Part shown: piece after piece, positions 9,049 to 33,267 of the stretch | Layout of the letters: the number at the start of each line of letters is the position of its first letter | Numbering within the stretch: position 1 is the stretch's first letter | DNA from: Lentisphaeria bacterium | GTDB lineage: Bacteria; Verrucomicrobiota; Lentisphaeria; Victivallales; UBA1829 | Length of the DNA: 38,552 bases | Reading direction: 5' to 3' | Assembly: GCA_017524965.1 (NCBI GenBank) | Contig: JAFXUM010000190.1 | Location: forward strand, 1 to 38,552 | Program-made: the position numbers and the translations under genes | Notes under the pieces: generated by a model | Told to the model about the DNA's origin: nothing | What the model saw: the letters and a program-made list of their open reading frames with translations, nothing else | The model's database searches: none

Positions 9049-10686
9049 TCAGGATTTCGGTTTCTCTTTCATGGAATCCGGAATATCTCCATTGCCGTAT
9101 TTATGCGTGATCGAACGGAATTCCATCAGGCTCGGGAAGAAGTTCACATGCACCTCGCCGGTCTTTCCGTTACGGTTTTTTTCGACTAAAAGAAGAGATT
9201 CCACCCCGTTGCGGTTCTTTTCGCGGTTGTCGAGGCCGGTTTCCTTTGCTTCGTCGCGGTCGCGGTGCAGGAAGATCACCACGTCCGCATCCTGCTCGAT
9301 GGAGCCGGATTCGCGAAGATTGCTCAGCCGGGGGCGCGCCGTCTTGTTGTTCGGCGTCTTCTCGACTTCGCGGTTCAGCTGGGAGAGCACAAGGACCGGG
9401 ATGTCCAGATCCTTGGCGAGTTTTTTGATGCCGCCGGAAATGGCGGACACTTCCACCTGGCGGCCGTCGCGGGACGACACGTCGCCGGCGCGCATCAGCT
9501 GCAGGTAGTCGATGATGACCAGGTCCAGGCCGGCCTCGGATTCCTTGAGCTTGCGTGCCTTCGCACGCAGCTCGAATACGGAAAGACCGCCGGTCGGGTC
9601 GATGAAAAGCCTGGCGTTGGTCAGCGCTTCCGCCCCGCGGGAAAGCCTGTTGGTCTCCTCGATGTTGAAGGTCCCGTCCGAAATGGACGACAGCGAGACT
9701 TTCGATTCGGTGCAGAGAAGACGCTGCGCCACCTGCTCCGCGCTCATTTCGAGCGAGAAGAACGCGACGCTTTTGAGCTGTTTGTTCACAGGCTGCTGGT
9801 CCGGGTCCGTGATGCGTTTGTCCGGCAGGTTTCTCATCGCGATGTTGCGCGCGATGTTCAGCGCCAGCGCGGTCTTGCCGATGGACGGACGGGCCGCGAG
9901 CACGACCATTTCCTGTTTTTTCAGGCCGCCGCCCAGCAGGTTGTCCAGCTGCGGAAATCCGGTCGGGATCCCCGGCTCGATCTCCTTGTTCATGAGGGCG
10001 ACGAAATGATTGAACGCGTCCGTGACGAGCTCGCCGATGCTCCTGATCTCGGAGCGGACGAAATCGTTGCGGACGGCGAAGAAGGACTGTTCGATCCCGT
10101 CCAGAAGTTCGTGGATCTCTTTTCCGCCGGGTTCCCGGCAGATCTGAAGCGCGGACGTGCAGGCGTTGATCATTTCGCGGAGCATGGCCCACTGGCGCAG
10201 GATGCCGCACCAGGTTTCCACGTTCGCCACGCTGCCGATGGACGCCTGAATATCGAACAGAGCGCCGGTCCCGCCGATCATCTCAAGACGGCCGGAACGG
10301 AGCAGATCGTCCTCGACCGACAGCAGATCGGGCGGATTGCCCGTCCGGCTGTTGACCTCGAGCATGCTCTGGTAGATCGCGGCATACTTCGGATCGCGGA
10401 ACATGATCTTCGCGTTCCGCGCGTATCCGGTCAGGGCCCTGTCGGCGGAGTCCTTTCCCTGAGAACCGGGCAGGATCCGCACGCCGAGCCTGGTCGCGAC
10501 CGTGTTGAAGCAGGTCGGGTCGGCCAGGACGCAGGCGAGGACGGAGCGTTCCATCTCGTAGTCCGCGTAGTCCGCGGTCTGCGGGATGGAATTGGAAGAA
10601 CGGGCTGCCGGAACGGCGTTCCGGGAAGAATCCTCCCCGGTCCCTGCCGCCCCGGCGCCGTGTGCATGATCGGAACGATCAGGCAT
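9049..10686 (-). CDS. dnaB: Replicative DNA helicase DnaB
   Basis: A 545-residue hexameric helicase that unwinds DNA at the replication fork. The N-terminal DnaB domain starts near residue 38 after a Ser/Ala-rich leader; the RecA-like domain carries Walker A ARPSIGKTAL (K271), FFSLEMS, and Walker B LVIIDYLQLM (D393), plus the DLRESGSIEQDAD-type motif seen here as NLRESGSIEQDAD. It is longer than the roughly 450-470 residues typical of the family because of the N-terminal leader and two inserts, near residues 65-85 and 290-305. GGAG precedes the ATG. It follows rplI by 17 nt, the classic rpsF-ssb-rpsR-rplI-dnaB order. Confidence 0.95.
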   Translation of the reverse strand: MPDRSDHAHGAGAAGTGEDSSRNAVPAARSSNSIPQTADYADYEMERSVLACVLADPTCFNTVATRLGVRILPGSQGKDSADRALTGYARNAKIMFRDPKYAAIYQSMLEVNSRTGNPPDLLSVEDDLLRSGRLEMIGGTGALFDIQASIGSVANVETWCGILRQWAMLREMINACTSALQICREPGGKEIHELLDGIEQSFFAVRNDFVRSEIRSIGELVTDAFNHFVALMNKEIEPGIPTGFPQLDNLLGGGLKKQEMVVLAARPSIGKTALALNIARNIAMRNLPDKRITDPDQQPVNKQLKSVAFFSLEMSAEQVAQRLLCTESKVSLSSISDGTFNIEETNRLSRGAEALTNARLFIDPTGGLSVFELRAKARKLKESEAGLDLVIIDYLQLMRAGDVSSRDGRQVEVSAISGGIKKLAKDLDIPVLVLSQLNREVEKTPNNKTARPRLSNLRESGSIEQDADVVIFLHRDRDEAKETGLDNREKNRNGVESLLLVEKNRNGKTGEVHVNFFPSLMEFRSITHKYGNGDIPDSMKEKPKS

Positions 10687-10703: not shown

Positions 10704-11159
10704 TCAGGCGGCGCCGACGACCTTGATCGTCGCGACGGCGGTGACGGTCTGGTGGAGCTTGATGTCGACCTTGAATTCGCCGATCGTGCGGATGGGGGCG
10801 TCCAGACGGATCTTGTTGATGTTGACCTTGACGTCCATCGACGCGAGCTTTTCGAAGATGGTGCGTTCGGAGACGGAGCCGAAGAGGTGTCCGTCTTCGG
10901 AGGCCTGCATCGGGATCGTGATGTCGAGGCCGGCGATCTTCGCGGAGAGAGCCTGGGCGGCTTCGAGGTCGGCTTTGCGCTTCGCTTCGATTTTCTCCTT
11001 GCGGGCTTCGAGCTGACGGAGCACGCCGGTGGAGGCGATGGTCGCGAATCCGCGCGGGATCAGGTAGTTGCGGGCGTAGCCGGCCGTGACGTGAACTTCT
11101 TCGCCGGCGAGGCCGAGGTCTTCAACGTCCTGCAGAAGGATCAGTTTGACATGTGCCAT
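10704..11159 (-). CDS. rplI: 50S ribosomal protein bL9
   Basis: A 151-residue large-subunit protein. The N-terminal domain carries the signature VKLILLQDVEDLGLAGEEVHV followed by GYARNYLIPRGFA; a long linking helix and a C-terminal domain with FGSVSERTI follow. The length matches the family. bL9 binds 23S rRNA and helps keep the reading frame during translation. It lies between rpsR and dnaB in the core operon. Confidence 0.97.
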   Translation of the reverse strand: MAHVKLILLQDVEDLGLAGEEVHVTAGYARNYLIPRGFATIASTGVLRQLEARKEKIEAKRKADLEAAQALSAKIAGLDITIPMQASEDGHLFGSVSERTIFEKLASMDVKVNINKIRLDAPIRTIGEFKVDIKLHQTVTAVATIKVVGAA

Positions 11160-11190
11160 GATTGAATTTCCTTTGCTGATGGGTTCCGGC

Positions 11191-11427
11191 TCAGAGAGCC
11201 ACGCTGATGATACGGGCGCGCTTCAGGGCCGTGCTGAGCATCTTCTGATGGTTCAGGCAGGTGCCGGTGATGCGGCGGGGAAGGATGCGGCCTTTTTCGG
11301 TCTGGAAACGGCGGAGCTGTTCCCCGTCCTTGAAGTCGATGTAGTTCACGTGATTCTCGCAGAATCTGCAGATCTTCGCTTTGTTGGTGCGACGCTTCGC
11401 GTGGCGTCTTTTCTGTTGCATTGCCAT
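11191..11427 (-). CDS. rpsR: 30S ribosomal protein bS18
   Basis: A 78-residue small-subunit protein that pairs with bS6. It has the family core YIDFKDGEQLRRFQTEKGRILPRRITG followed by the H-Q-x2-L-x3-IKRAR-like end. Cys pairs in KICRFC and in TGTCLNHQ suggest the zinc-binding (C+) form. Two in-frame ATGs lie three codons apart and either could be used. The gene sits 31 nt upstream of rplI. Confidence 0.96.
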   Translation of the reverse strand: MAMQQKRRHAKRRTNKAKICRFCENHVNYIDFKDGEQLRRFQTEKGRILPRRITGTCLNHQKMLSTALKRARIISVAL

Positions 11428-11464
11428 ATTTGGTCTCGCTTGTTAGTTGGTTTGTCTGAATGGA

Positions 11465-12088
11465 TCAGAAGGGGATGTCGTCCACGTTTTCGAGCGGGTC
11501 CGGACCGGAATCCGGCATGCCGCCCTGGCCGGGCTGCATGTTCGGAGCCGGATTGTACTGCGGCTCGTCGAACTGCTGACGGCGGTACGGCTGCCCCTGC
11601 GGAGCGCGGTTCTGGAAACCGCCCTGCCCCTGGTAGCCGCCCTGGGACGGATAACCGCCCTGGGGCTGGTAGCCGCCCTGGCGCGGAGCGCGCTGCTGGA
11701 AACCGTCGTCTTCCGGCGGCATTTCGCCGGGCGCGCCGCCCTGGTCGTCGCGGCGTCCCGAGAGGAACTGCACGCGTTCGGCCGTCACGCGGACGCGGGA
11801 GCGCTTCTTCTGGGTGTCCTTTTCGGTCCACTGATCGTAGACCAGACGCCCTTCGATGAAGACCGTGCTGCCCTTCTGGAGAAAACGGGAGCAAGTCTCG
11901 GCCTGTTTGCCCCAAACAACGATCTCCAGGAAACACGTTTCATCTTTCTCCTGGCCGCTCGCCTGCATGAAGCGGCGGTTGATCGCAATTCCGAACTCGC
12001 AAACGGCGGAATTGCCGCCCGTCAGATACCGGAGTTCCGGATCCCGGGTCAGATTCCCGATCAAAAGCACTTTGTTCAGAGAAGCCAT
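11465..12088 (-). CDS. ssb: Single-stranded DNA-binding protein
   Basis: A 207-residue SSB that coats single-stranded DNA during replication and repair. The OB fold spans about 1-110, beginning MASLNKVLLIGNLTRDPELR. A Gly/Gln/Tyr-rich flexible linker (about 120-185) contains several QGGY repeats, and the protein ends in the canonical acidic tip DDIPF that recruits partner proteins. The gene is between rpsF and rpsR, the standard position. The QGGY-type linker is longer than in many SSBs but ordinary in kind. Confidence 0.96.
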   Translation of the reverse strand: MASLNKVLLIGNLTRDPELRYLTGGNSAVCEFGIAINRRFMQASGQEKDETCFLEIVVWGKQAETCSRFLQKGSTVFIEGRLVYDQWTEKDTQKKRSRVRVTAERVQFLSGRRDDQGGAPGEMPPEDDGFQQRAPRQGGYQPQGGYPSQGGYQGQGGFQNRAPQGQPYRRQQFDEPQYNPAPNMQPGQGGMPDSGPDPLENVDDIPF

Positions 12089-12119
12089 GTGACTCGCCTC
12101 CTTTCTTCAGTTTGATGGA

Positions 12120-12485
12120 TTACTCGGCGTCGGCCGCGGGGCCGGCGGGAGCCGTCGTCGCCGGTTCCGGGATCGCCAGCTTGGAGCGGACGTGTTCCGG
12201 ACGGTCGTAGACGATGGAGAGGAACCGCAGGACGCGTTCGTCCAGGCGGAACTCGTCGCGGAGCGTCGCTTCCTTGGCCTGTTCGACTTCGAACACGAAA
12301 TCGAAATAGTAGCCGGCTTTGCGTTTCTTGATCTCGCGCGCAAAGGTCTTGCGGCCCATCGCGACGTTCTCGATCATCTTTCCGCCCCAGCCGTTGATCA
12401 GCTTTTCGAACTGATCGGCAAAGGCCTTGCCCTCATCGTCGACTTTGCGCGGGTCGAGGATGAATACTGCTTCGTACTTTTTCAA
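12120..12485 (-). CDS. rpsF: 30S ribosomal protein bS6
   Basis: A 121-residue small-subunit protein beginning MKKYEAVFILDPR, with the ferredoxin-like fold landmarks YYFDFVFEVEQA and VLRFLSIVYD. A short Ala/Pro tail replaces the Glu-rich tail of E. coli S6. It binds 16S rRNA with bS18. Only 21 nt separate it from pth, so there is no room for a separate S6/S18 autoregulatory leader here. Confidence 0.96.
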   Translation of the reverse strand: MKKYEAVFILDPRKVDDEGKAFADQFEKLINGWGGKMIENVAMGRKTFAREIKKRKAGYYFDFVFEVEQAKEATLRDEFRLDERVLRFLSIVYDRPEHVRSKLAIPEPATTAPAGPAADAE

Positions 12486-12506
12486 GACTGCACCTCCAGG
12501 TGTTGC

Positions 12507-13160
12507 TTATTTGTTGTTTACAGACGTTTCTGTTGTTGTTTTGTTCGGTTGGCTGTCTTCGTCCGCGCTGAAGTCGCGCGGATTGTATTGGTTCATTGCC
12601 ATTGCGATGCCTCGTCTCAGGATCAGGACGGCCGCTTCCGCAGCTCCGGCCAGCACCCGGTCGAATACCGCGCGCTCTTCCTCGCTGAACTCCGAAAGGA
12701 CGTAATCGATCACGTCCCCGCGGCTTTCCGCGTGTCCGACGCCGATCCGCATCCGGTTGAATCCTTCCGATCCGATCTCTTCGATCAGAGAATTGATCCC
12801 GTTGTGTCCGGCGCTGCCGCCTCCTTTGCGGATCCGGATCCGCCCGAGGGGGATGTCCATGTCGTCATGGGCCACCAGCACCTCGTCCGGCGCGATCCCT
12901 TCGCTCCGCATCAGCGGGGCGACCGCCTCGCCGCTCAGGTTCATGTACGTCAAAGGCGTCTGAACGATCAGCGGCGCTCCGGCGTAGGTCCCCTTCCAGT
13001 AGTAGGACTGGAACCCGTGGACCCTCTGGAAGGAACGCGGAAGTCTGGTCAGGAGGCGTTCGGCAAACATGAATCCGGCGTTGTGACGTGTGCCGTCGTA
13101 TTTGCTTTCCGGATTTCCCAGTCCGACGATGAGCCGGATCCGATGTGTTCCGTCCGCCAT
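12507..13160 (-). CDS. pth: Peptidyl-tRNA hydrolase
   Basis: A 217-residue enzyme that frees tRNAs from prematurely released peptidyl-tRNA. The family motifs are present: LIVGLGNPESKYDGTRHNAGF (with the catalytic His in RHNAG), PLTYMNLSGEAV, VAHDDMDIPLGRIRIRKGG and SAGHNGINSLIEEIG. The ATG is preceded by AAAGGA. A C-terminal Thr/Asn-rich tail beyond the enzyme fold is not conserved. The gene lies between rplY and rpsF. Confidence 0.96.
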   Translation of the reverse strand: MADGTHRIRLIVGLGNPESKYDGTRHNAGFMFAERLLTRLPRSFQRVHGFQSYYWKGTYAGAPLIVQTPLTYMNLSGEAVAPLMRSEGIAPDEVLVAHDDMDIPLGRIRIRKGGGSAGHNGINSLIEEIGSEGFNRMRIGVGHAESRGDVIDYVLSEFSEEERAVFDRVLAGAAEAAVLILRRGIAMAMNQYNPRDFSADEDSQPNKTTTETSVNNK

Positions 13161-13226
13161 GTCGCGCTGTCCTTTCCGTGTTCTTCCGTCCGGAGGCTCT
13201 TCCGCATCGCAAACAAAGCAGGAAGA

Positions 13227-13904
13227 TTACTCCGCTTTCTTGCGGTCCTCGCGGGCCGCGGCGCGTTCTTCGGTCTTCTTCTCGGCGATGACTTCGGGTT
13301 CGGCGGCTTCCTCGCCTTCGGCGGGAGCGGCTTCTTCTTCCTCGGCAGCGGCGGATTCATCGACTTCGGTGAACACGACGAGGTCGGCGTGGGTCACGGC
13401 GGTAACGCCTTCGGGCATCACGATGTCGCCGACGTGGATGATGTCGCCGAGGTTCATGCCGGAGACGTCCACGATGATCTCTTCGGGGAGGTCCTGCGGG
13501 AGGCTTTCCACTTCGATTTCGTGGAGGTTCTGCTCAAGCAGACCGCCCGCGGCAGCGCCGGCGGGCACAGTGTGACCGGCGCGGACCGCGACGTGCGCCT
13601 TGATCTTCTGGTCCATGCGGATGGCCTGGAAATCCAGATGGCGGGTGCGGTTCTTGATCGGGTCGTGCTGGACTTCCTTCAGCAGGACGAGCGTTTCCTT
13701 GCCATCCTCGACGAGGGAGAGGATGTTCAGCTCGTTGCGGGAGAGCAGCTGCCATTCCGTGGCGTTCACGGAGATGCACTTCGGCTCAATGCCTTTGCCG
13801 TAGACGATCGCGGGGATCAGTCCGGTCTTTCTCAGGCGGCGTGCGTCGTTGGTGGTACCGGCCGTACGCGCCTGCACGTTCAACACATGTTTGACTTTTG
13901 CCAT
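13227..13904 (-). CDS. rplY: 50S ribosomal protein bL25 (Ctc/TL5 form)
   Basis: A 225-residue protein of the long general-stress form: the N-terminal 5S-rRNA-binding domain (about 1-95, with LRKTGLIPAIVYGKG and a later RHLDFQAI) and a C-terminal TL5 domain (about 100-185, with GAAAGGLLEQNLHEIEVESLP). The tail is a low-complexity Glu/Ala run ending in Lys/Arg residues. It follows prs by 75 nt and precedes pth, the usual prs-ctc-pth order. Confidence 0.95.
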   Translation of the reverse strand: MAKVKHVLNVQARTAGTTNDARRLRKTGLIPAIVYGKGIEPKCISVNATEWQLLSRNELNILSLVEDGKETLVLLKEVQHDPIKNRTRHLDFQAIRMDQKIKAHVAVRAGHTVPAGAAAGGLLEQNLHEIEVESLPQDLPEEIIVDVSGMNLGDIIHVGDIVMPEGVTAVTHADLVVFTEVDESAAAEEEEAAPAEGEEAAEPEVIAEKKTEERAAAREDRKKAE

Positions 13905-13979
13905 TTTCGGTCCTTTCGTGTAATGTGTCGGTTATGTGTGGGTTGTTCGTTTCGTGTTTCGTTTCGGGGGCTTTTCCGC

Positions 13980-14924
13980 TCAGCGCTGGAAAAGCGAATT
14001 AAGGGAATCGCCGTTGTGGATGCGGCTGATCGCTTCGGAGAGGAGCGGGGCGATGTCCAGCGTGTGGACGCTGTCGCCCTTCAGGTCGGTCGGAACGGAG
14101 TTCGTCGTGATCAGCTCTTCGATGCAGCTGGCTTTCAGCTTCTCGAACGCTTCTTCGCGCGCCAGGAAGTGCGACACCGCCGCGAGAACGTGGGACGCGC
14201 CTTCGCGTTTCAGAAGCTCGGCTGCGGCGCAGAGCGTGCCGGCCGTGCTGGTCATGTCGTCGACCAGGACGCACGTGCGTCCCTTCACGTCGCCGACCAG
14301 ATGCGAGGACGCCACGTGGTTCGCGTCGAGGCGGCGTTTTGCCACCACTGCGAATCCGCAGCCCAGGCGGTCGGCGAACGACTGCGCCATCTTCACGCTG
14401 CCGGAGTCGGGGGAGACGATCACGGATTCCGAGTCGGTCTTGCCGCGCAGATACGGGATCAGCACGGATGCCGCGTACAGGTGGTCGACCGGGATGTCGA
14501 AGAATCCCTGGATCTGCTGGGAATGGAGGTCCATGGCGAGGATGCGGTTCGCGCCCGCGGTCGTCAGCAGGTTCGCGACGAGCTTGGCCGTGATCGGCAC
14601 GCGCGGCTTGTCCTTGCGGTCCTGGCGGGCATATCCGAAGAACGGGATCACAGCGGTGATTCTGGCCGCGGACGCGCGGCGGGCGGCGTCCAGCATGATC
14701 AGAAGCTCCATCAGGTTTTCGTTCGTCGGATTGGACGTGGATTGGATGATGAATGCGTCCGCATTCCTCAGGGTATCCTTGTACTGGACAAAAATTTCGC
14801 CGTCCGGGAATCTCTGCACGGTCACGTGGCCGAGCTGCTGTCCCAGGCACTGCGCGATCGATTCGGCGAGTTTCGGATGTGATGTCCCGCTGTAGAGTCG
14901 GATGTCTCTCGCGTTTCCTTCCAT
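13980..14924 (-). CDS. prs: Ribose-phosphate pyrophosphokinase
   Basis: A 314-residue cytoplasmic enzyme that makes PRPP from ribose 5-phosphate and ATP, feeding purine, pyrimidine, His, Trp and NAD synthesis. Motifs: the substrate region RFPDGEIFVQ, the ATP loop FFGYARQDRKDKPR, the PRPP-synthetase signature DLHSQQIQGFFDIPVDHL, and the PRPP-binding loop VLVDDMTSTAGT. The ATG at 14924 gives the family start (RDIRLYSG soon after) and has ACAGGA five bases upstream. A second in-frame ATG at 15053, with AGGA about seven bases before it, would add 43 basic residues not typical of the family. First gene of the core operon. Confidence 0.94.
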   Translation of the reverse strand: MEGNARDIRLYSGTSHPKLAESIAQCLGQQLGHVTVQRFPDGEIFVQYKDTLRNADAFIIQSTSNPTNENLMELLIMLDAARRASAARITAVIPFFGYARQDRKDKPRVPITAKLVANLLTTAGANRILAMDLHSQQIQGFFDIPVDHLYAASVLIPYLRGKTDSESVIVSPDSGSVKMAQSFADRLGCGFAVVAKRRLDANHVASSHLVGDVKGRTCVLVDDMTSTAGTLCAAAELLKREGASHVLAAVSHFLAREEAFEKLKASCIEELITTNSVPTDLKGDSVHTLDIAPLLSEAISRIHNGDSLNSLFQR

Positions 14925-15185
14925 GGTGTCCTGTGTCTTTCCGTTCGTGGTTGAGGGTTGGTGTCGAACAAATCCCTGTCCGAGGTACGGAAGACGGCCG
15001 AACGCGAGTCCTTTTTTCCGCAGCCGGAGCGAACGCTCCCGACGCTGCGCCATGCCGGGATCCTGAAAAACGAGGCGGCATAAACAGCCGGAAATCCCTG
15101 CGCATGAAAGAAAACCCCGCGGTCATGCGGGTCCTGCGACCCACCGAATCCGGACATGCGGATTAAGGTTTCTGTTTCAACGTGT
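14925..15185 (-). promoter_or_regulatory. Long structured leader of the prs operon
   Basis: About 260 nt separate the promoter from the prs start. The leader contains a GGGTC/GACCC stem with a four-base loop (15129-15142) and a larger hairpin (15019-15049) with CGCAGC/GCTGCG outer arms and a GGAGCG-CTCC inner stem. Neither is followed by a clean T-run. The second hairpin falls inside the possible upstream extension of prs. I do not recognise a known riboswitch class. Confidence 0.4.
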
Positions 15186-15191
15186 CTAAAT

Positions 15192-15219
15192 AATATAGAC
15201 CATCTTTCCGGAAAATCAA
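15192..15219 (-). promoter_or_regulatory. Promoter of the prs-to-bamA operon
   Basis: TTGATT (15219-15214) and TATATT (15197-15192) are 16 nt apart on the minus strand. No other strong promoter is seen before bamA, so this may drive all nine genes. Confidence 0.6.
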
Positions 15220-15267
15220 GTTGGATTCCGTTATTTTTCACTCATTTCGTGCATTTTTCGCAAAAAG

Positions 15268-15283
15268 GGAGGGCAGGCCCTCC
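15268..15283. other. Short hairpin before the tandem repeat
   Basis: A perfect GGAGGG/CCCTCC stem of six pairs closes a CAGG loop. It lies ten bases before the first 41-bp repeat unit and may belong to the same structured region. Confidence 0.4.
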
Positions 15284-15292
15284 ACTGATACT

Positions 15293-15374
15293 GTGCTCTG
15301 CTGCGCGAGAGCACACACGGAGTGTGCCAGGCAGTGCCGTGCTTCGCGACGGCACACACGGAGTGTGCCGGAAA
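15293..15374. repeat. Two tandem 41-bp hairpin units with compensatory changes
   Basis: Unit 1 spans 15293-15333 and unit 2 spans 15334-15374. Each starts with a 7-bp stem (GTGCTCT/AGAGCAC in unit 1, GTGCCGT/ACGGCAC in unit 2) closing an 8-base loop that differs at one base. The two stem positions that differ are changed on both sides, so pairing is kept. An 18-base block beginning GCACACACGG (15311-15328 and 15352-15369) is identical in both units and can itself fold as GCACAC/GTGTGC, competing with the first stem. The function is unknown. Confidence 0.7.
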
Positions 15375-15397
15375 AGCGAAAAACCGTTTTTTTCCGG
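15368..15397 (+). terminator. Terminator-like hairpin in the GH51 leader
   Basis: CCGGAAAA (15368-15375) pairs perfectly with TTTTCCGG (15390-15397) and is followed on the plus strand by a T-rich run (TTTCTTTCTCTTTTTC). It overlaps the end of repeat unit 2 and lies 135 nt before the GH51 start. It could be an attenuator if transcription of the gene begins upstream. Confidence 0.4.
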
Positions 15398-15532
15398 TTT
15401 CTTTCTCTTTTTCACTGGATTTTTGCGGGAAATGCTGTTACATTATCGAAGAAAATCAGCGCCCCGCCCTGCCCTGCACGGCGGACGGGACGTCATTGCC
15501 GTTTTTCCAATCCACAACAGAAAGGATTTTGC

Positions 15533-17530
15533 ATGAAACACAAGGCTCTCATCGGCATCACCGCCGCGGCCGCGCTCCTCTCGGCCGGCGCCGGGCTTGA
15601 CGCGCAGAACCAGGACGCGCCGAAGACCATGACCGGCACGCTCGACCCCGCCAAGGTCAAGTTCGACATCAGCCCGACCATGTACGGCGTCTTCTTCGAG
15701 GACATCAACTTCGCGGCGGACGGCGGACTCTACGCCGAGCTCATCAAGAACCGTTCCTTCGAGTTCCCGAACGGCCTCTCCGGCTGGGAGACGGACGGCA
15801 GGGTCCAGGTCGTCAAGGGCAGCGAGGGCGACGTGCCGTTCCCGCGCAATCCGCATTTCGCGCGCCTGACCGCCGAATCCCACCGCGACCAGTGGACCGC
15901 GCTTGACAACGGCGGATTCCGCGGCCTCGCGTTCGAAAAAGACAAGACGTACCACCTGACGCTGATGGCGCGCCTCGCCCCCGGCACAACGGAACCGGTC
16001 AAATTCGACGCCGCGTTCGTCCGGGAGGACGGCACGATGGAAGCCCGCACGCCGTTCACGGTGAACAGCCGCGAATGGAAGGAGTACAAGGTCGACGTGA
16101 AGGCGGTCAGCACGCAGACGCGCGGCAAGTTCCGTCTGCTCCTGAACGGACACCGGGGCGCGGTCGACATGGACCACATCTCGCTCTTCCCGGAGGACAC
16201 CTGGAAGGGGCGCGCGAACGGCCTCCGCAACGACCTCGCGCAGGCGATCGCCGACCTCAAGCCGAAGATCTTCCGTTTCCCCGGCGGCTGCATCATTGAG
16301 GGCACCAAGCTCGAGGACCGCTACCAGTGGAAGAACTCCGTCGGCGCGGTCGGCAACCGTCCGCTGAACGGCAACCGCTGGAACAACACGTTCGTCGACC
16401 ACCTGACCCCGGACTACTTCCAGAGCTACGGGCTCGGCTTCTTCGAGTTCTTCGAGTTCTGCGAGGACATCGGGGCGGAACCGCTGCCCGTGCTGAACAT
16501 CGGCCTCGCGTGCCAGTTCCAGAACGACGCGAACGACCTCACCGCGCAGGTCGCGCTCAATGAGCTCGGGCCGTACATCCAGGACTGCCTCGACCTCATC
16601 GAGTTCGCCAACGGCCCTGTCACCTCGACCTGGGGCAAGCTCCGCGCCGACATGGGCCACCCCGAGCAGTTCAACCTGAAATACATGGCCATCGGCAACG
16701 AACAGTGGGGCAAACTCTACACCGACCGCCTCCCGATCTTCCTGCGGGAAATCCGCGCGAAGCACCCCGAGATCAAAATCATCGGCAGCTCCGGCCCGAA
16801 CCCGGACGGAAGGGATTTCGACTACCTGTGGCCGAAGATGCGCGAGTTCAAGGCGGACCTCGTCGACGAGCACTACTACCGCGATCCCGACTGGTTCCTC
16901 AGCCACATTGACCGCTACGACAAGTACGACCGCACCGGCCCGAAGGTCTTCGCCGGCGAATACGCCTGCCACGACAACCCGACCAACTCCCTCCGCGCCG
17001 CGCTCTGCGAAGCCGCGTTCCTGACCGGCATCGAGCGCAACGCCGACGTCGTCCGCATGACCTCCTACGCGCCGCTCCTCGCCAACTACTACGCGTGGCA
17101 GTGGGCGCACGACATGATCTGGTTCGACAACACCACGGTCGTGAAGACGCCGAGCTATTTCGTGCAGAAACTCTACAGCACCAACGCCGGAACGCACACG
17201 CTCGACCTCTCCGGTCTCGGCGCGCTCCCCGCCGACTGCTACTGCGGCGCGGTCCTCGACGAATCCGAGGACGGCGACAGCGTCATCGTGAAGTTCGTCA
17301 ACCTCGGCAAGACCGTCGTCCCGATCTCCATCAACATCCCGGGCGCGGCCGACGGCGCGGAAGTCTCCGTGGTCGGCATCAAGGGCGCGGACCTCGCGGA
17401 CAAGAACGACCTCGCGAATCCCGAGCTCGTCAAGCCGGAGGAATCCAAGCTGAAGATCAGCGCCGGCATCTTCGAGGCGAAACAGGATCCCTTCAGCTTC
17501 ATGGTCTACCGGATCCCGGTCAAGAAATGA
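15533..17530 (+). CDS. Secreted GH51 alpha-L-arabinofuranosidase
   Basis: A 665-residue enzyme that removes arabinofuranosyl side groups from arabinan, arabinoxylan or pectin. A signal peptide (about 1-25, ending near LDAQ) is followed by an N-terminal carbohydrate-binding-like jelly roll (about 40-225), the catalytic barrel and a C-terminal beta domain. The acid/base Glu is E390 in AIGNEQWG and the nucleophile is E476 in FAGEYA, both intact. FRFPGGCIIEGT is another family landmark. AAAGGA lies eight bases before the ATG at 15533; longer in-frame starts would read through the repeat region. It is alone on the plus strand, with an IS200 element just after it. Confidence 0.93.
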   Translation: MKHKALIGITAAAALLSAGAGLDAQNQDAPKTMTGTLDPAKVKFDISPTMYGVFFEDINFAADGGLYAELIKNRSFEFPNGLSGWETDGRVQVVKGSEGDVPFPRNPHFARLTAESHRDQWTALDNGGFRGLAFEKDKTYHLTLMARLAPGTTEPVKFDAAFVREDGTMEARTPFTVNSREWKEYKVDVKAVSTQTRGKFRLLLNGHRGAVDMDHISLFPEDTWKGRANGLRNDLAQAIADLKPKIFRFPGGCIIEGTKLEDRYQWKNSVGAVGNRPLNGNRWNNTFVDHLTPDYFQSYGLGFFEFFEFCEDIGAEPLPVLNIGLACQFQNDANDLTAQVALNELGPYIQDCLDLIEFANGPVTSTWGKLRADMGHPEQFNLKYMAIGNEQWGKLYTDRLPIFLREIRAKHPEIKIIGSSGPNPDGRDFDYLWPKMREFKADLVDEHYYRDPDWFLSHIDRYDKYDRTGPKVFAGEYACHDNPTNSLRAALCEAAFLTGIERNADVVRMTSYAPLLANYYAWQWAHDMIWFDNTTVVKTPSYFVQKLYSTNAGTHTLDLSGLGALPADCYCGAVLDESEDGDSVIVKFVNLGKTVVPISINIPGAADGAEVSVVGIKGADLADKNDLANPELVKPEESKLKISAGIFEAKQDPFSFMVYRIPVKK

Positions 17531-17563
17531 ACAGCTGAATTGTTGCTGAAATAGAAAATCAAA

Positions 17564-17743
17564 ACCACCAGCTGAGCTGGTGGTATGCACTGCGCCTAGA
17601 AGGCGATATTACTGGCGGCCCGACACGGGCCCTGAATGGACTGCCAGTCGCATTCCCTTCACGAGCCGCCGCTAAAGCGGCCCATGAGTTTGTTTTTGTT
17701 GTTATGAACCAGTTCGAGGTCTAGAGGATTCGTCTTCTAGACC
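17564..17743 (-). ncRNA. Structured non-coding tail of the IS200 element
   Basis: The 190 or so bases after the tnpA stop fold into a chain of perfect stems: GGTCTAGA/TCTAGACC (17718-17743), GCCGC/GCGGC (17668-17681), a nested pair ACTGGC/GCCAGT enclosing GGCCC/GGGCC (17611-17648), CGCCT/AGGCG (17593-17605), and the right-end hairpin (17564-17584). That is much more structure than transposition needs. The layout recalls the omega RNA region at the 3' end of tnpB elements, but no tnpB is here. An RNA product is inference; the stems are seen directly. Confidence 0.45.
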
Positions 17744-17754
17744 CCTTTTCTGCC

Positions 17755-18225
17755 TTACTTATTCTTGCCACCCGTAAACGGGTCAATGTATTCTTTGAAG
17801 GTCATTTGTTCATACGCCTCATCCTCGTCCAGTTGATGGCGGATGTATTCCTCGATTGCCTTTTTGTTGGCCCCCACCGTACTCACGAAGTATCCCCGAC
17901 ACCAGAAGTACCGGTTTCCATATTTGTACTTCAGGTTCGCATGACGGTCGAATATCATCAGAGAACTTTTTCCCTTCAGATACCCCATGAATTGCGACAC
18001 GCTCAGGTTCGGTGGGATACTCACCAGCATGTGGATGTGATCCGGACATGCGTTCGCTTCCAGAATCTCCACCTTCTTCTGCTCGCACAGCGTCCGGAGG
18101 ATTTTCCCGATGCTCACTTTGATCTTACCGTACACAGCCTGTCGACGAAATTTCGGCGCAAATACGATATGGTACTTGCAATTCCATCGGGTGTGTGATA
18201 AACTATCTGTGTTGTCTTTTGGCAT
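17755..18225 (-). CDS. tnpA: IS200-family Y1 transposase TnpA
   Basis: A 156-residue HUH single-strand transposase. The metal-binding HUH motif is H63-I64-H65 in CPDHIHMLVSIPP, and the catalytic tyrosine is Y127 in IEEYIRHQ; both are intact and the length is normal, so it is probably active. The start KYHIVFAPKFRRQ is typical of the family. The ATG at 18225 has AAGAGG about seven bases upstream; a longer in-frame start would add 20 atypical residues. It acts as a dimer on the end hairpins of the element. Confidence 0.95.
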   Translation of the reverse strand: MPKDNTDSLSHTRWNCKYHIVFAPKFRRQAVYGKIKVSIGKILRTLCEQKKVEILEANACPDHIHMLVSIPPNLSVSQFMGYLKGKSSLMIFDRHANLKYKYGNRYFWCRGYFVSTVGANKKAIEEYIRHQLDEDEAYEQMTFKEYIDPFTGGKNK

Positions 18226-18329
18226 TGTTGGGCCTCTTGGGTTACTTTGGGCTTTGACCGGCAGTCTAAGCTTAATGTACTCCAAGAGGCTTTTCTGCGC
18301 AACTTGAATCTAAAGTTTTTTCGGCTACT

Positions 18330-18346
18330 TACCGGCTGAGCCGGTA
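18330..18346. repeat. Left-end hairpin of the IS200 element
   Basis: TACCGGC and GCCGGTA form a perfect 7-bp stem around a TGA loop, flanked by a T-run (18347-18354). It is the likely TnpA recognition hairpin upstream of tnpA. Confidence 0.75.
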
Positions 18347-18376
18347 GTTTTTTTGACCTAAAGGTGTATAAAAACG

Positions 18377-31911: not shown

Positions 31912-33267
31912 ATGAAAATCTCTTCTTTTCCCGGAGACATCCCGCAGACCCCGCTCTTCGCCGCTGCCTCGAAAGCCGCCGCCGTGCTCCGCGCAGCCGG
32001 ACACAAGGCGTATTTCGTGGGCGGGGCCGTCCGCGACCTCCTGCTCGGACGCACCCCGGACGACGTCGACGTCACCACGTCCGCGCGCCCGGAGGAGATT
32101 CAGGCGCTGTTCGAAAAGGCGATCCCCATCGGCGCGGCGTTCGGCATCATCACGGTCGTCGTCGACGGTATCCCGATCGAGGTCGCGACGTTCCGCGCGG
32201 AACGCGGCTACAGCGACGGCCGCCGCCCCGACCATGTGGTCTACACGGACGACGAGGTCCTGGACGTGACCCGGCGCGACTTCACGATCAACGGGTTGCT
32301 GTTCGACCCGGCGGAACGCACCGTGGTCGACTGCGTGGGCGGGCTCGACGACCTCCGCGCGGGCGTCCTGCGGACCATCGGCGATCCCGTGGTCCGCTTC
32401 GGCGAGGACCATCTCCGCATCCTCCGCCTCGTCCGGTTCGCGTCGCGCCTCGGATTCGAAGTCGATCCCGCCTCGGAACAGGCGGCCGCCGGCGCGGCGG
32501 AAAAACTCCGTCTGATCGCCGCCGAACGCATCCGCGCCGAACTCGAAAAGATCCTGCTCTGTCCGCATCCGGCGGAGGGATTCGAGATGCTCGCGCGCCT
32601 CGGCATCCTGCGGGTCGTCCTGCCGGAAGTCGACGCCATGCGCGGCGTGGAACAGCCGAAGCAGTACCACCCGGAGGGCGACGTCTTCGTCCACACCATG
32701 CTCCTGCTCCGACACGCCGCCTGGCGCACCCCGGACCTCATGTGGGCCGCCCTGCTCCACGACGTCGGCAAGCCCGGCACGCAGACGTTCAAGGACGGCG
32801 TGCCGCATTTCTACGGACACGAAACGCTCGGCGCGGACATGGCGGCGGACATCCTCGCGCGCCTGCGCTTCTCGTCCGCCTCGGCCGAATCGATCACCGC
32901 CGCCATCCGGCATCACATGCGGTTCGCGTCCGTCCACGCCATGAAAAAAGCCAAGTGGATGCGGATCATCGCCGATCCGAATTTCCCGCTCGAACTCGAG
33001 CTGCACCGCCTCGACTGCATCGCGTGCCACGGACTGCTCGACAACTACGTCCTCATGCTCGACCGCATGCGCGAATACGCCAAACTCCCCGCCCCGCGCA
33101 AGCCGTTCCTGAACGGCAACGACATCATCGCGCTCGGCGTGAAGCCCGGTGCCGTCTTCAGCCGCATCCTCAGCGAGGCGGAAGACCTCCGGCTCGAGGG
33201 CGAACTCCAATCGCGCGAGCAGTCCCTCGAATGGCTCCGCGCCCGCGTCGAACACCTCGACCTCTGA
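31912..33267 (+). CDS. cca: CCA tRNA nucleotidyltransferase / poly(A) polymerase family
   Basis: A 451-residue class II nucleotidyltransferase that adds or repairs the CCA end of tRNA, or adds poly(A). Motifs: FVGGAVRDLLLGRTPDDVDV with catalytic D51 and D53, RRDFTINGLLFD, and RFASRLGFEVDP. A metal-binding HD domain follows (about 255-370; LLHDVGKPGT). The HD domain and absence of a basic tail favour a CCA-adding enzyme over PcnB, but both share the fold. No Shine-Dalgarno is visible before the ATG, which is unusual in this window. Confidence 0.9.
   Translation: MKISSFPGDIPQTPLFAAASKAAAVLRAAGHKAYFVGGAVRDLLLGRTPDDVDVTTSARPEEIQALFEKAIPIGAAFGIITVVVDGIPIEVATFRAERGYSDGRRPDHVVYTDDEVLDVTRRDFTINGLLFDPAERTVVDCVGGLDDLRAGVLRTIGDPVVRFGEDHLRILRLVRFASRLGFEVDPASEQAAAGAAEKLRLIAAERIRAELEKILLCPHPAEGFEMLARLGILRVVLPEVDAMRGVEQPKQYHPEGDVFVHTMLLLRHAAWRTPDLMWAALLHDVGKPGTQTFKDGVPHFYGHETLGADMAADILARLRFSSASAESITAAIRHHMRFASVHAMKKAKWMRIIADPNFPLELELHRLDCIACHGLLDNYVLMLDRMREYAKLPAPRKPFLNGNDIIALGVKPGAVFSRILSEAEDLRLEGELQSREQSLEWLRARVEHLDL

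Follow-up and report, generated by a model that had tools for sequence, protein, structure and literature searches.

Members of the GTAG-tagged REP super-family (Di Nocera 2013, PMC3733652) are intergenic, lie 3′ of genes, often provide a TAG stop codon and occur as single and tandem copies. In the portions of that paper drawn on here, a tag precedes a stem of 6–9 bp, GYAG tags can be degenerate, stems carry alternative complementary residues and loops have GC/GC ends; head-to-tail arrays are described as rare, and other families keep the tag in more than 90% of their members. REPtrons may be missing where REPs occur, and a RAYT is not strictly defining for GTAG-REPs. The nearest precedent for the arrangement reported below is found in structures of P. 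putida and P. fluorescens, where an unrelated stem-loop lies next to a degenerate GTAG-1 unit. By a published rule (Hirao; summarized in PMC4686876), DNA mini-hairpins are extraordinarily stable when two G-C pairs close a GNA or GNNA loop.

In the present study, a 38,552-nucleotide stretch of DNA from a Lentisphaeria bacterium (hereafter, the window) was analyzed together with related genomes. A dispersed repeat made of two hairpins is represented in the window by one array, which consists of two units followed by a third hairpin A. A genus-specific, GTAG-type REP/BIME-like dispersed repeat built from a two-hairpin unit is probably the best explanation of these copies. A REP-like repeat was one of three options offered by the initial annotation of the window, and it is the one that fits best.

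Results

Architecture of the repeat unit

Each unit comprises a hairpin A with a variable stem of 5–7 bp, a spacer of 5–9 nt that ends in a GTAG or GCAG tag in most units, and a hairpin B with a 7-bp stem (GTGnnnn/nnnnCAC) and a loop of GCTNCGC or GCTNNCGC. The order from A through the spacer to B is fixed and head-to-tail; copies stand singly or in tandem, with a period of 41–46 bp in most arrays. Two classes of hairpin A were distinguished. Class I reads GGAGGC, CGAGGC, TGAGGC, GGAGGAC and similar, followed by ACTnnGGnA, and its first pair varies among copies (G-C, C-G or T-A), while class II reads CACAC, CACCGC or CACTGC, followed by 5–8 nt. A pattern search of the loci from the window's own genome and 681 kb of the relative G005 placed a hairpin A upstream of 118 of 121 B hairpins. 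The tag before B was GTAG in 46 of these 118 units (an exact match in 39%), GCAG in 30 and another sequence in 42.

The window's array is set out in Table 1. As the initial annotation had described, positions 15293–15374 contain two 41-bp units, 86% identical over 36 nt, whose 7-bp stems (GTGCTCT/AGAGCAC and GTGCCGT/ACGGCAC) differ at two pairs, T-A to C-G and C-G to G-C, with both sides altered. The units themselves are real; their extent was cut too small. The hairpin A of the first unit, just upstream, was missed. The competing stem GGCACAC..GTGTGCC is also present and forms part of the minimum-energy fold on either strand. The two-state switch built on it finds no support: this stem belongs to a module of its own, hairpin A, and B is overlapped only where A is of the CACAC type. 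Compared with shuffles, the fold of the 88-nt window stretch was only mildly more stable (z −1.7, and −1.8 for the other strand), so the single window sequence is weak evidence; it is recurrence across the genome that lifts the window's hairpins above chance.

Table 1. Coordinates of the array and of the conserved block before GH51 in the window
Feature	Positions	Strand	Basis or further occurrence
Hairpin A, first unit, class I, GGAGGGC-AG-GCCCTCC	15268..15283	+	Sequence; also at the same locus in G003 and G012
Spacer ACTGATACT; ACTG at the tag position, not GTAG/GCAG	15284..15292	+	
Hairpin B1, GTGCTCT-GCTGCGCG-AGAGCAC; bottom strand GCGCAGC (GNA loop)	15293..15314	+	22-mer identical at C78:6353 and C97:206
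Hairpin A, second unit, class II, GCACAC-ACGGA-GTGTGC (the competing stem of the initial annotation); overlaps the 3′ end of B1	15311..15327	+	
Spacer CAGGCA; with the next G, tag GCAG	15328..15333	+	
Hairpin B2, GTGCCGT-GCTTCGCG-ACGGCAC; bottom strand GCGAAGC (GNA loop)	15334..15355	+	Covariance model
Third hairpin A, class II, without a following B (half unit)	15352..15368	+	Sequence
Block kept before GH51, CACTGGATTTTTGCGG..GTTACATTATCG; not part of the repeat	15413..15449	+	Upstream regions of G000, G002–G006, G008 and G010–G012

Copy number and distribution

The sequence GGCACACACGGAGTGTGCC occurs within 2 mismatches at 12 places in the window's own genome, all of which read as part of the larger repeat, and its reversed control at none. 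A covariance model was built from 13 hand-picked copies, which match it by construction. With 150 of 2354 candidates scored, it returned at least 126 matches in this genome at E ≤ 1, the E-values being rough, and the window's B2 was the top match (60.6 bits). Twelve of the 13 genomes of the genus gave 67–133 matches each at E ≤ 0.01. At this threshold, no matches were obtained in the remaining member, G007, or in 28 genomes of other genera, and a sample of 289 genomes of the phylum searched with stricter filters yielded matches in genus members only. A pattern scan of genome contigs brought up two matches, both weak, one in a Deltaproteobacteria MAG and the other in an Opitutus MAG. The GH51 of G007 shows 64% identity, compared with 88–95% for the other full-length orthologues, making G007 the most divergent member by this gene; as it also lacks copies, the family may date from after the G007 split. 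Searching positions 15000–15600 against Rfam 15 produced no covariance-model match above chance level, and a literature search on repeats of Verrucomicrobia and Lentisphaerae found nothing useful.

Stem covariation and the loop rule

When the tag side, 5′ arm and loop were fixed and the 3′ arm was left free, all seven positions were paired in 56 of 75 hairpins and six in a further 12; the reversed control gave no match. The alignment comprised 42 of 43 distinct sequences, leaving out an unpaired match in a coding region (window 31984–32004). Across these copies, 93.1% of cells were paired, compared with 80.7 ± 1.1% after shuffling; cells altered on both sides numbered 41, compared with 10.4; and the covariation score was 0.353, compared with 0.131 ± 0.016 (0 of 500 shuffles in each case). 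Stem covariation, on which the initial annotation relied, is thereby supported across copies. Counts of pairs and of pair types did not exceed those of shuffles. The copies are related, so shuffles overstate significance; slid registers, which preserve relatedness, all scored far lower than the true register.

The loops follow a strict rule. In the loci from the window's own genome and the 681 kb of G005, 126 GTG stems are perfect over 7 bp and enclose a loop of 4–12 nt, and the bottom strand of the loop read GC-GNA-GC in 71 and GC-GNNA-GC in 25 of them (together 96 of 126), with all four bases at N. The orientation of the loop relative to the GYAG tag was 71:1. This rule may reflect recognition of the hairpin as single-stranded DNA. 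Nearest-neighbor energies of the two strands are almost equal, neither strand being clearly favored. By a hand tally, about two thirds of the two-N loops also satisfy the GNRA rule of RNA, and these loops therefore do not discriminate between RNA and DNA.

Placement relative to genes

Gene positions were counted for the fetched loci and the 681 kb of G005, with genes called by a codon model trained on G005, whose starts are approximate. Arrays are mostly 3′ of genes. The gene context of units was ++ in 39 cases, +- (convergent) in 30, -- in 29 and -+ (divergent) in 1; 11 of 118 units fell within called ORFs. The window's array, between prs (-) and GH51 (+, start at 15533), is a second divergent case and was scored inside an ORF solely through an over-long TTG start.

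Heads of 32 arrays lay within 100 nt after a same-strand stop codon, and 14 of them began exactly at the stop (8 TAA, 6 TGA). With a uniform null, to which real intergenic lengths conform only approximately, the binomial tail for this exact abutment is 3e-20. The reading frames of seven further genes enter the unit and end at the TAG of the tag. No such abutment was seen at the B end, where the minimum distance was 6 nt. A bare stop trinucleotide was considered as the insertion target and rejected, as one precedes only 2 of 79 array heads away from gene ends. All 14 abutting units follow TAA or TGA, compared with 2 of 79 others, indicating that placement tracks the gene end and not the bare trinucleotide. 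One conceivable account is a self-spreading two-hairpin element that lacks a RAYT and is set at functional stop codons by machinery recognizing the GNA/GNNA DNA mini-hairpin of the bottom strand; we consider it rather unlikely.

GC-rich hairpins 3′ of genes also bring intrinsic transcription terminators to mind. However, TTTT occurs within 12 nt after B at only 2 of 93 array ends, and a terminator function is highly improbable. Placement mostly 3′ of genes, in many cases exactly at the stop codon, would further suit RNA elements, that is, transcribed 3′-end hairpins that guard mRNA ends or tune neighboring genes, with pairing maintained by selection on RNA. The predicted RNA hairpins are stable, the stems covary, and published REPs can function as RNA elements according to PMC3733652. 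Nevertheless, units occur in either orientation relative to genes (the ++ and -- contexts above), T-runs are as scarce as stated, no Rfam family matches, gain and loss are fast, and the window's array lies in the divergent prs/GH51 region. Such a role appears distinctly unlikely; it would leave dispersal unexplained, and it can coexist with the REP/BIME-like explanation.

The GH51 locus in relatives

The conserved block before GH51 (Table 1) is present both with and without the repeat and is probably the promoter region of this gene; a simple sigma-70 scan made no promoter call at these positions. The array lies upstream of this promoter-like block and is thus probably outside the GH51 mRNA, which makes a GH51 leader RNA unlikely and speaks against the RNA regulator of GH51 that had been suggested. 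Hairpins A and B as the alternating states of a riboswitch or leader switch would be in keeping with the overlapping alternative stems within one fold and with the position upstream of GH51. However, the unit also occurs at more than 100 unrelated loci, has no Rfam match and is absent from the GH51 locus of G006, G004 and G002, where the promoter-like block is retained. We regard such a switch as extremely doubtful.

The window's hairpin A and the sequence around it recur at the GH51 locus of G003 and G012. In these two relatives, the spacer of the first unit is ACGTGGGCA, which yields a GCAG tag. Their B1 stems read GTGCCGA..ACGGCAA and GTGCCGT..ACGGCAC, respectively, whereas that of the window reads GTGCTCT..AGAGCAC and follows another spacer; the window's B1 matches two other copies in the genome letter for letter (Table 1). 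With B1 of the CCG/CGG type in both relatives and identical copies elsewhere, replacement by another genomic copy is the simplest reading, and it appears likelier than the compensation by two rescued point mutations that the two changed pairs had suggested. Grounds against a conserved structure named by the initial annotation, namely a lack of other copies together with lost pairing in the closest relatives, did not materialize: copies abound, and in G003, the closest relative, B2 is fully paired and B1 is partly unpaired, lacking the outer and innermost pairs.

Other features of the region were recorded. In G003 (L192, G003:C6), about 1.1 kb of unrelated DNA lies between the orthologous array and the promoter-like block. 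On the minus strand of the window, positions 10704–15053 carry the co-directional genes prs, L25, peptidyl-tRNA hydrolase, S6, SSB and L9, and a DnaB helicase (9049–10686) lies further along from this row.

Turnover at orthologous sites

Between species, orthologous sites were variously occupied, empty, expanded or altered. The site in G005 opposite L134 is empty, and L148 differs from its orthologous site by one unit versus several. At L118 (G000:C242), compared with G005, a unit replaces the C-terminal codons and the stop, and the TAG of the tag terminates the shortened ORF. At L104 (G000:C137, about 962–989), the corresponding site in G005_C2 has a small fragment from the middle of the unit, inverted in the manner that a template switch would produce, and L096 and L051 differ at several pairs at once within flanks that are 95% identical.

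Template switching at replication, which copies one arm onto the other, would make pairing a by-product at palindromes whose structure is unused. Such switching produces multi-base compensatory changes and spacer inversions (PMC8794818; PMC8604942), in line with the inverted piece at L104 and the multiple differences between L096 and L051. However, inversion should then be frequent, whereas the loop keeps its orientation relative to the tag almost without exception; a common tag, spacer and loop at unlinked loci require copying between loci; and the window's B1 is exactly equal to other genomic copies. As the source of the pairing, template switching is improbable, and it may still add to the variety of stems.

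Search for a transposase

An IS200-type element (17560–18350) with end hairpins CCACCAGCTGAGCTGGTGG and TACCGGCTGAGCCGGTA lies directly downstream of the GH51 stop. Its tnpA (17758–18285, minus strand; NF033573, E 1.3e-44) gave the genome's sole Y1 transposase match; it was considered as a RAYT and rejected, being IS200 by its match. Searches of the 13 genomes of the genus with PF01797 and NF047646 found no RAYT, only IS200 and fragments. The sole weak NF047646 match in the genus is the window's IS200, a fragment in G001 matches this same element, and pieces in G005 and G002 look, by eye, like remnants of IS605-type TnpA. The genomes are 69–94% complete, and it is unlikely that a RAYT was overlooked in all 12 that bear the repeat.

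In the sister genus, a RAYT gene of G013 (L195, G013:C202) is flanked by GTAG-REPs. This REP, GTAGTGCCGTCAGTCCCTTGACGGC, has about 26 mostly identical copies within 3 mismatches in that genome (L199–L208 among them), and the REPs begin GGGTAGTGCCGT, as do some units of the genus studied here. Nevertheless, the two repeats have the tag in common and differ in the loop, the covarying stems and hairpin A, which is lacking in the ten G013 copies read, so that they need not descend from one ancestor.

Discussion

RAYTs are regarded as the enzymes that move REPs. The present REP-like family differs in copy number and location among members of a genus whose searched genomes yielded no RAYT. This genus and its sister genus with both a RAYT and REPs lend themselves to a paired comparison on the question of whether REPs can be maintained or dispersed when their transposase is absent. 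Moreover, covariation between paralogous repeats is unsafe proof of selection on RNA, and the window locus serves as a warning in this respect. The strict GNA/GNNA loop rule makes recognition of the hairpin as single-stranded DNA directly testable.

For the REP/BIME-like repeat that we favor, the following course can be proposed. Hairpin B would be recognized in the way that HUH transposases of the IS200/IS605-like type recognize REPs, as single-stranded DNA folded into a hairpin, which would make the repeat a candidate substrate for binding and cleavage by such an enzyme. The family may have spread early in the genus together with an enzyme of this kind, which was presumably later lost or replaced. 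Present change would then proceed through tandem amplification, deletion and copy-to-copy replacement, and units may gather at gene ends, where they would do least harm and sometimes provide the stop codon.

The family shows most features of the GTAG super-family; the two-hairpin unit and the failure to find a RAYT in the genus set it apart as a variant. It is a high-copy, mostly intergenic palindrome of 20–50 nt with alternative complementary stem residues among copies. As far as the portions of PMC3733652 drawn on here describe them, GTAG-REPs share with it the GC/GC loop ends, the alternative stem residues, the location 3′ of genes and the use of TAG as a stop, a GTAG/GYAG tag stands before the stem in part of its units, and GTAG-3 is nearest in loop design. 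Unlike them, the genus repeat joins B at a fixed distance to a second, unrelated hairpin A that also covaries; its arrays run head to tail, A can lie directly against a stop codon, and no RAYT was found; those portions contain no mention of a partner hairpin abutting stop codons exactly. The loop design of the bottom strand of B is that of the GNA/GNNA DNA mini-hairpins, which are a physical motif, not a repeat family, and whose importance in the cell is presumed. As in BIMEs and REPINs (PMC3116915), a composite unit of more than one hairpin is dispersed as a whole. REPINs are inverted pairs of one REP, whereas the genus repeat joins two different hairpins in direct order, and identity with REPINs was rejected for this reason.
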